Part shown: positions 165 to 49,398 of the stretch, piece by piece
How the letters are laid out: each line of letters begins with the position of its first letter
How positions within the stretch are numbered: position 1 is the stretch's first letter
Assembly (NCBI GenBank): GCA_944350345.1
Contig: CALVOP010000006.1
Coordinates: 1-50,062 of the forward strand
DNA: 50,062 nt
Reading direction: 5' to 3'
Source of the DNA: an uncultured Bacilli bacterium
Lineage (GTDB): Bacteria; Bacillota_I; Bacilli_A; RF39; UBA660
The notes under the pieces: generated by a model
The model's database searches: none
Seen by the model: only the letters and a program-made list of their open reading frames with translations
Told to the model about the DNA's origin: nothing
Position numbers and translations under genes: made by a program

Positions 165-1028
165 TTATTTTGGTAAATTGTCAAGCAAAATATGCTCTTT
201 TATATTTCTATTATAATGAAACATATATTGAATACATAAACCAATGTTTTCACTAAACTTGTTTTCTAAAAACTCTTTTATTTGAATTGAATTACCATCA
301 AAACCATAAAAATTCTTAACAAACTTTATTACCCAAGTATCTATAGGAAATGTATCAAATCTCGCAAATCCAAAAAGCAAAATACAAGATGCCACCTTCA
401 TTCCTACTCCTTTTATTTGCGTTAAATAATTTAAAGCATCAAAAGTAGACATATTATTAGTTACGATAACAAAATCTTTATTACGCTCTAAAAATTCTAT
501 AGCACTTAAAATATACTTATCTCTAAAACCTATTTTTAACACTTGCAAATCTTCTAATTTTAGATTAATAATTCTATCATAAGTTGGAAACAAATAATAT
601 TCTTTATCTCTAAAGTTAACCACATTCCCATATAGTTTGCAAAATAACTCAATAGATCCCATAATCCTTTTAACATTATTATTTTGACTAATAATATAAC
701 TAAAAAGCATTTCTAAAGGATCTTGTCTTAAAATTCTATAAGAACTGCACTTATCCAATACATCAGAAAAATCAAGATTATTCATTTTTAAATTATTAAT
801 AATCTCACTATAATTTCTATTCAAATCAAAATAATTTATTACCACGTTTTCCAAATCATCATAATTATTTGAATTTACAAATAAATAACTACCCCTTTGA
901 AAAACATTAATTACCCTATCGGAAAGAATTACGTCAAAACTACCATCTTCTAGTTCACAAATTCTAAAACATTGCCCACTCAACAACGTTTCAGATAAGT
1001 TCATATCACCACAAAATACTTTAATCAT
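165..1028 (-). CDS. ogg: 8-oxoguanine DNA glycosylase/AP lyase, OGG1 type
   Basis: This 287-residue protein should excise 8-oxoguanine from DNA and cut the abasic strand. An N-terminal OGG_N-like region contains LLSGQCFR. SQNNN at about 114-118 matches the conserved Asn loop of OGG1. The helix-hairpin-helix KGVGMKVASC (about 206-215) contains the expected catalytic Lys211, and FPIDTWV supplies Asp230. It overlaps the upstream LTA-synthase-like gene by 4 bases (ATGA), so the two are translationally coupled. The length is slightly short for eukaryotic OGG1 but normal for bacterial members. The motifs separate it from AlkA, which lacks the lysine. Confidence 0.9.
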   Translation of the reverse strand: MIKVFCGDMNLSETLLSGQCFRICELEDGSFDVILSDRVINVFQRGSYLFVNSNNYDDLENVVINYFDLNRNYSEIINNLKMNNLDFSDVLDKCSSYRILRQDPLEMLFSYIISQNNNVKRIMGSIELFCKLYGNVVNFRDKEYYLFPTYDRIINLKLEDLQVLKIGFRDKYILSAIEFLERNKDFVIVTNNMSTFDALNYLTQIKGVGMKVASCILLFGFARFDTFPIDTWVIKFVKNFYGFDGNSIQIKEFLENKFSENIGLCIQYMFHYNRNIKEHILLDNLPK

Positions 1029-2968
1029 AGTCCCAATCTTCCATAATAATTAATATATTTACCATTTTTAGAAGTTAAAATCAAAGAAGACATAGTAAAC
1101 TTCTGATAGACATCACTATTAACTTTATCAACATAATTATCTGGAATATCTTCAACAAAAGGAGTGAAAGTTTCAGAAATAGCATCATATTTACCCTTAT
1201 TTGTAATCCAACTTCTATCAGAATAAATAACTAAGCCATCACCTTCAGCAAAAACATCCCTTCCCATTAAAAGACGAGAATCATACGGAATTCCAAACAA
1301 ATTATAAACTGTAGGAAGAACATCAATACTACTAACATACTTATCAACATAAACTGGTTCCTCCATTGCAGAATTATAAATAATCAAAGTAGTTTTATAC
1401 AAATCAAACTTATCATCCCTATTAAAAGTACTAACCTCATTAATTTCACTTTCTTTTAATCCATAAGGATAATGATCAGGTGATATAACAATTACCGTAT
1501 CATCTAACTTACCAGCTTCTTCCAAATAGCCCAAAAGTTTTTCCATAGCGCGATCAAATTCAATATTTGCAGCAATATAAGCCTTTACATTACTACTATA
1601 AGGCAAATCAGCGACTAAAGCTCTATTCTTATAACTCATAGAATTTCCCGTAAAAGTATAATTTAAGTGACCACTTACAGTCATATAATAAGTCAAAAAT
1701 TTCTCTTCATTAATAAAACTTGAGTAAGTAACATCAACCATTTCAATATCACTTTCTGGCCAAATTTTACAATTCATCAACTTTTCCAAACCATTTCCAC
1801 AACCAACATAATTAAAACCTAAATTCGGATGCGACAAATTCCTATCATAATAAGCATAAGAATGATCATGCCAAGCATTAGCCACATATCCTTGATTTTT
1901 AAACATATTTCCTAAAGCAAAAGGCATATCAATAAAACTACTTCTATACATACTCCAAACACCTTCTTTAGGTATTAAAGAATTCATAAACATATATTCC
2001 CCATCAGATGTAGACACAGTAAAAAGTGGCTGATAATAATTATTAAAGACAAAGCCATTAGTGCTCATTTTATATAAAGTAGGAGTTAGTTCCTTGCTAA
2101 TAGCAATAGTATCAAGACCCTCCGCAGTTATATAAATCAAATTCTTATCTTTAAACATACCAGTATAATCATTTTGTTCCGTAGGTTGAACACTAGAAAA
2201 ATACTCATGCATAGATTTTACAGTTTCATCAGTTTCATTAATTAACAAAGAAGCAAAATCTATATCGAGCATATTATATTTAACTTCCTCTTCAATAACC
2301 ACTTCTTCCTTATCTGAATCATCAATCCACAACTTTTCCTCAAATCCAAAAATAAACCTTTTCAAATCAAGACGTTCCATTGTTAATAACCCCATTTTAT
2401 TAACAGTTAAAATAGGCGCATGTGTTTCACTATAAAGTCTTTTATAAGAATACATACCTTTATCATTAAAATAAATAATCATACCAGTTGCAACAAATAA
2501 CAAAACCATTAAAAATAAGTTAAATATCAACCAGAATTTATTAAATCTTTTAAAACCAAAAATCTTATGTCCAAAAATAGCATATAACAAAGTTGGTATA
2601 AACATTAAAACAAGAGGAATCCAATTTCTCACCATCATATCCAAAATTGCACTAAAAAAGCCTAAAACTTGCCCAGTGCCAGTAGTTAAAGAAAATATAG
2701 AAAAAATAGAATCATAGAAAGCATAATAAACCAACTGAGCCATAAATAAAATAGTTATAAAAAAACTTAATATAATGCTCAAAACATGATTTACCTTTTC
2801 AGAATAAATATTTGAAACAAAGTATAAAAGCATAGCAATTGGAATACTAAAAAATACTATCACCAAAGTATCCAATGAAAACAAATTATTAAAAACAAAA
2901 AATTTATAAACCAGTTCCAAATATATAATTAAAAATAAAAACCAAAACAAACTTTTTAACTTTTTCAT
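1025..2968 (-). CDS. LTA synthase-family phosphoglycerol transferase (sulfatase fold)
   Basis: A membrane enzyme of 647 residues. About five transmembrane segments fill residues 8-165, followed by an acidic linker (about 215-235) and an extracellular alkaline-phosphatase/sulfatase domain. In LtaS-type enzymes this domain moves glycerol phosphate from phosphatidylglycerol to teichoic acid chains. The nucleophile motif STSDGEYMFMNSL places the catalytic Thr at about 320, metal-binding Glu is in TAEGLD (about 283), and SPDHYPYG carries the Asp-His pair. The match to LtaS is at motif level, so the true acceptor (LTA or another polymer) is uncertain. An extended -10 lies at 2988-2996. Confidence 0.85.
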   Translation of the reverse strand: MKKLKSLFWFLFLIIYLELVYKFFVFNNLFSLDTLVIVFFSIPIAMLLYFVSNIYSEKVNHVLSIILSFFITILFMAQLVYYAFYDSIFSIFSLTTGTGQVLGFFSAILDMMVRNWIPLVLMFIPTLLYAIFGHKIFGFKRFNKFWLIFNLFLMVLLFVATGMIIYFNDKGMYSYKRLYSETHAPILTVNKMGLLTMERLDLKRFIFGFEEKLWIDDSDKEEVVIEEEVKYNMLDIDFASLLINETDETVKSMHEYFSSVQPTEQNDYTGMFKDKNLIYITAEGLDTIAISKELTPTLYKMSTNGFVFNNYYQPLFTVSTSDGEYMFMNSLIPKEGVWSMYRSSFIDMPFALGNMFKNQGYVANAWHDHSYAYYDRNLSHPNLGFNYVGCGNGLEKLMNCKIWPESDIEMVDVTYSSFINEEKFLTYYMTVSGHLNYTFTGNSMSYKNRALVADLPYSSNVKAYIAANIEFDRAMEKLLGYLEEAGKLDDTVIVISPDHYPYGLKESEINEVSTFNRDDKFDLYKTTLIIYNSAMEEPVYVDKYVSSIDVLPTVYNLFGIPYDSRLLMGRDVFAEGDGLVIYSDRSWITNKGKYDAISETFTPFVEDIPDNYVDKVNSDVYQKFTMSSLILTSKNGKYINYYGRLGL

Positions 2969-45097: not shown

Positions 45098-45123
45098 TAA
45101 AAAAAAGTTCTACTTTGAGAACT
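45098..45123 (-). terminator. terminator of spo0A
   Basis: On the minus strand AGTTCT-CAAAGT-AGAACT is followed by a T8 run. It overlaps the spo0A stop codon and isolates the gene from gpmI. Confidence 0.75.
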
Positions 45124-45886
45124 AACTAATTTTAAGCATTTCTAACCTTAGTTTATCTGCTATCGTTACTATAAATTCCGAATTTGTTGGTTTTGCTTTA
45201 TCTATATCAACACTGTGTCCGAATATGTCTTCCATTAAACTCCAGTCTCCACGATTCCAACTAACTTCTATTGCATGCCTTATTGCTCTTTCTACTCTTG
45301 ATACTGAAGTTTTGTATTTTTGGCCTATTTCTGGATATAATTCTTTTGTAATCCCACCTATTAAACTAGGATTTGTGTATACAAGTGATATTGCTTCTCT
45401 TATGTATTGATATCCTTTTATGTGTGAAGGAATTCCTAGTTGATGTAATATTTTTGTTATTGATATTTGTATGTTATGGTCATGTAGGTCTATTACTTGA
45501 GATTGCATTTTGTTTCCTTCAATTAATTCTAAAATCTTTTTTTCGAATTCTTTAAAATCAAATGGTTTTAGCATAAAGTATCTTACTCCATACTCACTTA
45601 CTCTTCTTATTGTATCTGGTTCGTTATATGAAGTTAATACTATGATATTCTTTTGTTTTTTTGATTTCTTTAGTTCTTCTAGTACGTATAGTCCATCTTT
45701 TTTTGGCATTATTAGGTCTAATATTAGTACATCATATTTATCTTCTTCGTTAAATATTTTGTCTAGTGCTTCTTCTCCATCATATGCTGTTAATGCTACT
45801 TCTATTTTACTGCTTTCACGAAAGTATTCTTTTATTAATTCTACCATCGCTACATTGTCGTCTACTACTAATAACTTTGTTTTCAT
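45122..45886 (-). CDS. spo0A: Spo0A, master regulator of sporulation
   Basis: A response regulator of 254 residues. The receiver has Asp9/Asp10, phospho-acceptor Asp57 ([13 protein letters not shown]), Thr85 and the lysine in FMLKPF. The C-terminal Spo0A DNA-binding domain contains [18 protein letters not shown], the near-invariant recognition helix. No sensor kinase is adjacent. Sites resembling 0A boxes lie 75-110 bases upstream (see 45960-45996). Its presence marks a spore-forming lineage, though no other sporulation gene is in the window. Confidence 0.97.
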
Positions 45887-46734: not shown

Positions 46735-47874
46735 TTATTCTCCTAAAACTTCTAAGCCAGGTAATTTTTCTCCTGAAAGATATTCTAGTGATGCTCCTCC
46801 ACCAGTTGAAATGTAGTAAAAGTTATATCCAAATTTTTTAACAGCACTCGCTGTATCTCCACCACATACGATTGTCTTGATGTCATTATCATATAGACAC
46901 TTTAATGTATATTTTGTGCCTTTTTCATATTTTTGGTCTTCATATAAACCCATCGTTCCATTTGTTAAAACTAGTTTTGCACTTGATAAATATTCATTAA
47001 ATATTTTTATTGTTTCAGTGCCAATGTCGTATATAGTTTCATCATCGTTTATTTCATTAATAGATTTTTCACCGTTTTCTGTCATTACATCTACAGGTAA
47101 AATTATTTTGTGTTCATAATTGTTGACTAAATCTTTTATGTATTCATCTTTTTCATTATCAACAAATGTTTTTCCTACATTATATCCTTTAATTTTTAAA
47201 AATGTCCCACACATAGCACCGCCAATTATTACGTAATTTGCAGTGTTAATTAAGTTCTTTATAACTCCTATTTTGTCACTTACTTTTGCTCCACCTAATA
47301 GTAGTGTTTTATTTTCATTTTTTATTTCTTTTAATTTGTCAATTTCTTTTATAACTAAAAATCCGGCTGCACTTGGTAAATATTTTGCTATTCCTACTGT
47401 TGATGCATGTGCTCGATGAGCTGATCCAAATGCATCCATAATAAAGATTTCTCCTAGTGTGCTCCAATATTTTGATAAATTTTCATCGCAGTTGCTTTCT
47501 AATTTATCTGGGTAATCCATATGCCTTGTGTTTTCTAATAGTATTATATCTCCACTTTTTAGCATTTTGATTTTTTCTTCTATTTCCACGCCTTTTAGTT
47601 CTTCTGAAAACAGTATTTTTTTATTTAGTAATTTTTCTAAAACTATTTTCACTGGTTTTAAAGTGTTTTTTTCTAAATCTTCTTTTGTTTTAACTTTTCC
47701 TAAATGCGATAGTAATATTATTTTGCATTTCTTTTCTATTAAGTAGTTTATTGTTTCTAAACTTTGCTTTATTCTATTATCATCTGCAACCATTCCTTCT
47801 TTAATAGGTACATTATAGTCTACTCTAACTATTACTGTTTTTCCTTCTAATTTTAAATCTGTTATTTTTCTCAT
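46735..47874 (-). CDS. pgk: phosphoglycerate kinase
   Basis: Makes ATP and 3-phosphoglycerate. VIVRVDYNVPIK is the N-terminal signature, FGSAHRAHAST the substrate region, LLGGAKVSDKI the hinge and GGGASLEYLSG the C-terminal loop. The length is 379 residues. I start at ATG 47874 with SD GTGGTGA; the frame is open ten codons further but that part has no SD. It is followed directly by tpiA and preceded by an Rpn-related fragment. Confidence 0.97.
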   Translation of the reverse strand: MRKITDLKLEGKTVIVRVDYNVPIKEGMVADDNRIKQSLETINYLIEKKCKIILLSHLGKVKTKEDLEKNTLKPVKIVLEKLLNKKILFSEELKGVEIEEKIKMLKSGDIILLENTRHMDYPDKLESNCDENLSKYWSTLGEIFIMDAFGSAHRAHASTVGIAKYLPSAAGFLVIKEIDKLKEIKNENKTLLLGGAKVSDKIGVIKNLINTANYVIIGGAMCGTFLKIKGYNVGKTFVDNEKDEYIKDLVNNYEHKIILPVDVMTENGEKSINEINDDETIYDIGTETIKIFNEYLSSAKLVLTNGTMGLYEDQKYEKGTKYTLKCLYDNDIKTIVCGGDTASAVKKFGYNFYYISTGGGASLEYLSGEKLPGLEVLGE

Positions 47875-47924
47875 ATTTTCACCACTACTATTATTATAAA
47901 TCATTGTTTAACTTTTTTCTATTT

Positions 47925-48107
47925 TTATTCTTGATCGTTTAAGTCATTTTTTATATTTTTTATGTCTTTAGACTTTAAACCAGTTATTTCTTTTACTTCA
48001 TCTACTTTCATTCCTAACTTTAATAGTTTTCTTGCAATCCTAACTTTTTCGTTCATTTCTCCTAATTCAACGCCTTTTTCCAACCCTCTTTCAAATTCAT
48101 CTTTCAT
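47925..48107 (-). CDS. small protein, C-terminal part of an Rpn-family nuclease
   Basis: An intact 60-codon frame begins MKDEFERGLEKGVELGEMNE and continues with IARKLLKLGMKVDEVKEITG, the usual C-terminal tail of Rpn/PD-(D/E)XK transposase-like proteins. A perfect AAGGAGG lies 6 bases before the ATG, so it should be translated by itself. The nuclease domain is absent. Known Rpn genes can express a similar short C-terminal product from an internal start. It sits between gapA and pgk, inside the glycolysis block. Confidence 0.65.
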   Translation of the reverse strand: MKDEFERGLEKGVELGEMNEKVRIARKLLKLGMKVDEVKEITGLKSKDIKNIKNDLNDQE

Positions 48108-48350
48108 TAGAAACCTCCTTAAATTAGTTTTTACTTTTTTTAACATTTTATTATTGTTTCTACTATTATTATTAACTAAATTTTCTATAAACTCTTTTAA
48201 TTATTTACATTTTTTTACACTTCTTTCGTAATTTACGATTTTCTTACTTTTTTGTGCTAAATATTTAGGATTTTTAATTTGTTGTTTTAATTAAATTAAG
48301 ACTTTCTTTGTATTTATAATATGTTTTTTGTTGTTTTGTAAATAAACTGT
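47925..48350 (-). pseudogene. remnant of an Rpn-family recombination-promoting nuclease
   Basis: Upstream of the small intact ORF the same frame continues as protein-like sequence, interrupted by TAA at 48201-48203 and TAA at 48291-48293. Readable fragments include LKEFIENLVNNN, NPKYLAQKSKKIVNYERSVK and, in a shifted frame further upstream, TYYKYKESLNLIKTTN. They fit the middle and linker part of an Rpn protein. The catalytic N-terminal domain is not found before gapA's terminator. Confidence 0.6.
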
Positions 48351-48366
48351 AAAATAGATTTTTAAA

Positions 48367-48394
48367 GAAAAAACTATTGTTAATTCAATAGTTT
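48367..48394 (-). terminator. terminator of gapA
   Basis: On the minus strand AAACTATTG-AATTAA-CAATAGTTT is followed by further T's. It separates gapA from pgk-tpiA, so these are different transcripts or are linked only by readthrough. Confidence 0.78.
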
Positions 48395-48402
48395 GATTTT
48401 GT

Positions 48403-49398
48403 TCAGCAAATCTTAGAAATTGTTCTTATCATTTGTGCTGTGTATCCAACTTCGTTGTCATACCATGCAACAATTTTTGCTAAAACTTTGCCATCTTTTT
48501 CTATTATATTTGTGAGCGCTGCATCTACTATTGCTCCGGCTTCATTTCCAATTATATCACTACTAACTATAGGGGCATTTGTTATTTTTATTGTCTCGTT
48601 TTGATTTTCTTTAAACATTTTATTTATTTCTTCTTTTGTCACTTTTGTTTTTAATTCTACTGTTAAATCTACTAGTGAGCCATCTCCTACAGGAACTCTA
48701 AATGCTATTCCATCGAGTAGTCCATTTAATTCGGGAATGACTTTTCCAATTTGTGAAGCAGCTCCAGTTGAAGTTGGTATTATGTTTAGTGACGCTGCTC
48801 TTCCACGTCGACTTTCTATTCCTTTTTTATGTGGTATGTCTAATGTTTCTTGGTCATTTGTCATTGCGTGTACTGTCGACATAAATCCTTTTTCTACTCC
48901 ATAATTTTTGTGTAATAGATTAACTACTGGTGCTAAACAGTTTGTAGTACATGATGCACAACTTATTATTGTGTCTGTTTCTTCTAATAATTCGTCGTTT
49001 ACGTTATATACTATTGTTTTAGCATCGTCTTTTGCTGGAGCACTTATAATCACTTTTTTTGCTCCGGCATCTATGTGCGCTTGGCATTTTTCTTTTGATG
49101 TAAATACTCCTGTGCATTCTAAAACTATGTCAATTTGTAATTCTTTCCATGGTAAATTAGTTGGGTCACTTTCTTTGTATACTTTTATTTTTTTACCATT
49201 AATTATTATTGAATCGTCTTCATATGATACACTTTCTTCGTTTGTTCTATGTACTGAATCGTATTTATATAGGTAAGCAAGTTGTAGTGGATCTGTTAAA
49301 TCGTTTATTGCTACAACTTCTATGTCATCTTTTTTTGTTAATAGTCTTAATGCTGTTCTTCCTATTCTTCCAAAACCGTTTATCGCTACTCTTTTCAT
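48403..49398 (-). CDS. gapA: glyceraldehyde-3-phosphate dehydrogenase (NAD type)
   Basis: Oxidises glyceraldehyde-3-phosphate with phosphate. INGFGRIGR is the nucleotide-binding start, Asp33 in INDLTD indicates NAD preference, CASCTTNCLAPV contains catalytic Cys150, and NEVGYTAQM ends the protein family pattern. The length of 331 is normal. The SD is AGGAGG. It is the first of the glycolytic enzymes read on this strand, 11 bases after the nucleoside-kinase gene. Confidence 0.98.
   Translation of the reverse strand: MKRVAINGFGRIGRTALRLLTKKDDIEVVAINDLTDPLQLAYLYKYDSVHRTNEESVSYEDDSIIINGKKIKVYKESDPTNLPWKELQIDIVLECTGVFTSKEKCQAHIDAGAKKVIISAPAKDDAKTIVYNVNDELLEETDTIISCASCTTNCLAPVVNLLHKNYGVEKGFMSTVHAMTNDQETLDIPHKKGIESRRGRAASLNIIPTSTGAASQIGKVIPELNGLLDGIAFRVPVGDGSLVDLTVELKTKVTKEEINKMFKENQNETIKITNAPIVSSDIIGNEAGAIVDAALTNIIEKDGKVLAKIVAWYDNEVGYTAQMIRTISKIC

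Follow-up and report, generated by a model that had tools for sequence, protein, structure and literature searches.

The window, the whole 50,062-nucleotide stretch of DNA analysed here (contig 6 of an AT-rich, 898-kb metagenome bin that is 90% complete), contains a 60-codon gene beside pgk whose protein is conserved by purifying selection across its genus. By its profile matches and predicted fold, the product is an RpnS-type C-terminal domain of Rpn nucleases, and no resident toxin was detected. We hold with moderate confidence that it is a genuine, single-copy, stand-alone RpnS-type gene that was taken over by the ancestor of the genus and serves as a small regulator made with the pgk-tpiA cluster. 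The features of the region, in the order of transcription, are as follows.

48403..49398, minus strand: gapA, glyceraldehyde-3-phosphate dehydrogenase, the upstream neighbour (PF02800/PF00044)
48359..48396, minus strand: hairpin AACTATTG..CAATAGTT, then TTTTTT, 3' of gapA, likely the gapA terminator (sequence, alignment and fold; six of six species)
48215..48350, minus strand: fast-evolving spacer of 16% GC, probably non-coding, in which no Rpn signal was found
48130..48205, minus strand: partly conserved leader with the TAATAATAATAGTAG block (40-80% invariant columns), probably the promoter and 5' UTR of the small gene
48108..48129, minus strand: Shine-Dalgarno AAGGAGG and surrounding block ACTAATTTAAGGAGGTTTC, near-identical in six species
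47925..48107, minus strand: small gene, RpnS-type C-terminal domain, 60 codons and TAA, protein MKDEFERGLEKGVELGEMNEKVRIARKLLKLGMKVDEVKEITGLKSKDIKNIKNDLNDQE
46735..47874, minus strand: pgk, phosphoglycerate kinase, the downstream neighbour (PF00162, E 5e-119; start inferred from alignment)

Conservation of the small ORF

The earlier note had described an open frame of 60 codons with AAGGAGG and ATG between gapA and pgk, as well as two TAA triplets upstream in the same frame, and all of these were present in the sequence. AAGGAGG lies directly 5' of the ATG (ORF 48107..47925, minus strand), and gapA and pgk (start at about 47874) flank the ORF. The ORF finder returned a 73-residue version, which was ruled out as the conserved form, since its extra N-terminal codons carry a stop in one species (G002) and conservation of the protein starts at MKDEF.

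The genus was sampled by six metagenome bins with a completeness of 66-95%. In all six species (that of the window and five others) the small ORF was single-copy and stood between gapA and pgk, and its identity among them was 82-100%. The dN/dS ratio was 0.01-0.19 in the species pairs for which both rates could be estimated, comparable to the values of gapA (0.02-0.13) and pgk (0.08-0.16). The dS ranged from about 0.3 up to saturation in most pairs, and the silent sites were saturated in four of them. Between L002 and L004, for example, the ORF has changed at 16 third codon positions but in only one residue. All 15 variable residues of the small protein lie at position 26 or beyond (chance 6e-5), and residues 1-25 are identical in the six species, while 12 of the 24 codons from 1 to 24 vary silently. 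The low dN/dS and the residues that stay invariant despite silent change indicated that the small gene is maintained as a protein, as the earlier note had supposed, and most strictly in residues 1-25. Nor does the ORF decay at the rate of the DNA upstream of it, where 14-35% of sites differ among the six species, with up to 44 gap columns and frame-breaking indels.

Domain identity and the search for Rpn nucleases

Residues 3-52 of the small protein matched positions 224-273 of TIGR01784, the last 50 of its 273 positions, with an E value of 5.2e-8. The score of 33 bits was under the curated cut-off of 52.1 because the C-terminus alone is present. When a profile of the six small proteins and the Rpn tails of relatives was searched against the PDB, the best match was 7TH0 (RpnA-S of E. 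coli, E 8e-7). The most similar outside match was the C-terminus of a 294-aa Rpn on L108 (55%), phage records gave weak matches only (30-39% identity), and no PF14261 match was reported. The structure, predicted as a single chain with a pLDDT of 94.4, is a compact bundle of three helices (2-30, 35-42 and 46-59) with a long first helix. The model aligned with 7TH0 at Z 7.2 and 1.4 Å over 46 of 46 residues, and Foldseek gave a TM of 0.83 by target length but an E value of 1.0. TrpR-like proteins also reached a Z of about 7, but with an rmsd of 5 Å, and a Z near 7 among small helical proteins can reflect a common arrangement, so the HTH likeness is suggestive only; the HTH_19 match was weak (E 0.024, 15 bits, under the cut-off of 30.2). 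The TIGR01784 positions, the 7TH0 profile match and the predicted fold bear out the proposal that the ORF is RpnS-like.

The RpnS antitoxin of E. coli dimerises via helix 1 and binds and blocks RpnL. It acts only on its cognate RpnL, a specificity conferred by this helix, in which recognition is tuned by how many four-residue repeats there are. RpnS also occurs as a stand-alone gene beside rpn, as in the case of ypaA (rpnE-S) (PMC10327210). Like RpnA-S, which is made from an internal start in rpnA, the small protein has a three-helix fold and begins with a long helix bearing G-containing four-residue repeats, and its frame has its own Shine-Dalgarno and ATG. Unlike RpnA-S, it has a gene to itself, the genomes searched yielded no nuclease gene, and the first half of helix 1, hypervariable in RpnA-S, is invariant. 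The ypaA-type genes, some of which are annotated DUF4351 (PF14261), resemble it as a C-terminal domain in a separate small gene, but those named in print are located 3' of their rpn gene, whereas the small gene is an orphan in a glycolytic cluster. The TIGR01784 Rpn nucleases share its C-terminal positions but have the nuclease domain that it lacks. Features of an RpnL-RpnS locus were sought as well: no RpnL accompanied the RpnS in the six genomes (TIGR01784, PF04754), the ORF stands alone rather than at an internal start inside rpn, with no upstream Rpn signal beyond shuffles, and helix 1 showed no variation in repeat number, residues 1-25 being identical in the six species.

Profile searches with TIGR01784 and PF04754 detected no full-length Rpn in the six genomes of the genus. 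PF12784 gave no match in the genus either, but its control was likewise without any match. A second TIGR01784 match in G005 fell in an RpoD-like sigma factor and was ruled out as an extra Rpn copy; the second match in G004 lay at the same model positions. No second homologue of the small protein was found in its own genome, even at E 10. Given the completeness of 66-95%, absence is weak evidence in one bin and strong evidence in six. In other genera of the family, up to 21 TIGR01784/PF04754 matches were counted each, and where Rpn genes were apparently broken by assembly (e.g., in G032), tails remained at contig edges; nothing alike was seen in the genus. The search for full-length paralogues thus gave no support to the earlier suggestion that the small protein protects against other Rpn copies, as far as resident ones are concerned; protection against incoming Rpn is conceivable but less likely.

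Several further Rpn arrangements were observed in other genomes. In G032, several contigs (C8, C20, C27, C47 and C57; L008, L030) break off immediately 5' of an Rpn C-terminal domain, which looks as though a repetitive nuclease half had collapsed in assembly and the tails had stayed distinct. On L100 (G068:C1:1492000-1495000, 690-2421, minus strand), a full-length Rpn of 272 aa is followed by three tandem stand-alone copies of its C-terminal domain (75, 86 and 88 aa), all of which look like a duplicated RpnS plus part of the preceding segment. On L102 (G039:C15:29000-31500, 652-2055, minus strand), a second ORF after a 332-aa Rpn repeats the last ~110 residues of that Rpn, with divergence in the region of the final helix; this is a further case of an RpnL with a separate RpnS-like copy.

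Upstream DNA and gene neighbourhood

The earlier note had read the stretch upstream of the small ORF as a decayed Rpn nuclease with a frameshift, of which we found no trace in any frame. The upstream translations alone gave no Rpn match in NCBIfam. An HMM of 18 full-length Rpn proteins from relatives gave the upstream frames -4.8 to 5.0 bits, so that all six species fell within the range of shuffled DNA (shuffled upstreams reached 4.8 to 7.8). The highest scores, those of G001 and G004, were matched by 2 and 7 of 100 shuffles, respectively, and joining the upstream to the small ORF gave no consistent gain over shuffles. The initial TIGR01784 match had reached back to position 135, but this was gone when the upstream was scanned alone, and since these scans were without Rpn signal, the reach is best explained by A/T-rich sequence that prolonged the C-terminal match. 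A nuclease decayed in situ is unsupported and was set aside, as most species gave no more signal than shuffles did and NCBIfam gave none for the upstream alone. On the sequence, the two upstream TAA triplets are stops in DNA that carries no sign of a former Rpn; a very old, fully eroded nuclease may once have stood there.

The conservation of the upstream DNA increases toward the start of the small ORF. The share of invariant columns in the six-species alignment was 95% in the 20 bases preceding the start, 40-80% in the leader and 5-45% farther upstream. In the leader (48130..48205), no consensus sigma-70 site was scored on the minus strand, its RNA folded no better than shuffles (z 0.53), and no conserved palindromic operator was seen when the alignment was inspected by eye. 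The motif ATAATAATAGTAG has two sites genome-wide, 275 bases apart in the window, one in the pgk leader (47885-47897) and one in the leader of the small gene (48160-48172). Only the window and G003 have an exact pgk copy, and it is inexact in four of the six species, so the sharing is probably a triplet-rich coincidence, and the motif was dropped as a shared leader element.

The hairpin 3' of gapA was not scored by the consensus terminator scan, which requires three G-C pairs. Because it is likely the gapA terminator, transcription of the small gene probably begins at a start of its own. A tblastn search of 29 pgk loci of other genera found no small ORF between gapA and pgk, many of these loci being without gapA. 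In two other genera (L080 and L074), the gapA-pgk gap holds a prepilin-like ORF with the N-terminal AFTMVEMLGVVAILGI or AFTLVELLGVIVILGL. In this 0.9-Mb genome, tpiA and pgm are separated by a gene for a Spo0A-type response regulator (Spo0A_C, E 7e-41), located at 45122-45886 of the window.

Possible origin and role

Among the readings that the earlier note had offered, a domesticated small protein fits best. The nuclease part would have been lost, or would never have arrived with the RpnS-type domain, before the takeover in the genus ancestor. By analogy with RpnA-S, the small protein would form a homodimer through its long helix 1, and the HTH-like helices 2 and 3 might be used on a fixed cellular partner, either DNA or protein. 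Since the gene stands at the head of pgk, with a leader to itself and a probable gapA terminator before it, the protein could most simply act as a small regulator produced together with the pgk-tpiA cluster. We infer this regulatory role as the first choice from the head-of-pgk position, the conserved leader, the probable gapA terminator and the HTH-like fold; the link to glycolysis is one of position alone.

The main and serious rival, which we consider rather unlikely, is an orphan (preventive) antitoxin that would cap a full-length Rpn arriving on mobile DNA by pairing with its C-terminal domain, so that Rpn is tolerated or does not cause addiction. RpnS does inhibit RpnL by binding it in a complex via this domain, and E. 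coli has RpnS genes that stand alone (PMC10327210); the several Rpn copies in many other genera of the family also make incoming Rpn plausible. However, no resident RpnL was detected in the six genomes searched, and the nearest Rpn tails found were only about 45-55% identical to the small protein. The specificity of RpnS for its own RpnL, such that one added four-residue repeat abolishes the effect (PMC10327210), also weighs against it. Moreover, the tracking of changing invaders predicts a variable helix 1, which here is the invariant half. With no RpnL detected and most of helix 1 frozen, one unchanging partner, either the protein itself or a target in the cell, fits better than changing invaders.

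The ORF might instead serve as a translational or transcriptional leader whose translation sets the expression of pgk, the peptide being secondary. Its stop lies only 50 bases from the pgk start and its Shine-Dalgarno is the strongest conserved non-coding block, but most of the 60 codons are under selection at the amino-acid level while silent sites are free, a known fold is predicted for the protein with confidence, and the folding of the leader RNA was unremarkable, which makes this role improbable. Less credible still is the remnant of a dying Rpn gene, open by chance or through recent decay. Such a remnant would agree with the two in-frame stops upstream and with the mobility of Rpn genes, which in relatives are often duplicated and truncated; yet the 60 codons are open in six species at a dS of about 0.3 to saturation with dN/dS below 0.2, and these rates together with the invariant residues already contradict it.

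The domesticated regulator is thus the reading that we carry forward. No description of a nuclease-free, conserved, stand-alone RpnS was found in the open-access literature searched. Orphan antitoxins have often been proposed, but to our knowledge there are few cases in which cross-species selection was measured and no partner was detectable. The present case is compact, with a single copy in a fixed place, purifying selection, a homologue of solved structure and no resident toxin detected, and it makes the domestication of an Rpn antitoxin directly testable. A segment that is hypervariable in defence systems is frozen here after separation from the nuclease. Tentatively, an anti-phage antitoxin domain without its nuclease may have turned into a dimeric regulator that does housekeeping work at the pgk cluster in this reduced-genome genus of Bacilli; if true, half of a toxin-antitoxin pair would have been recruited into central metabolism.
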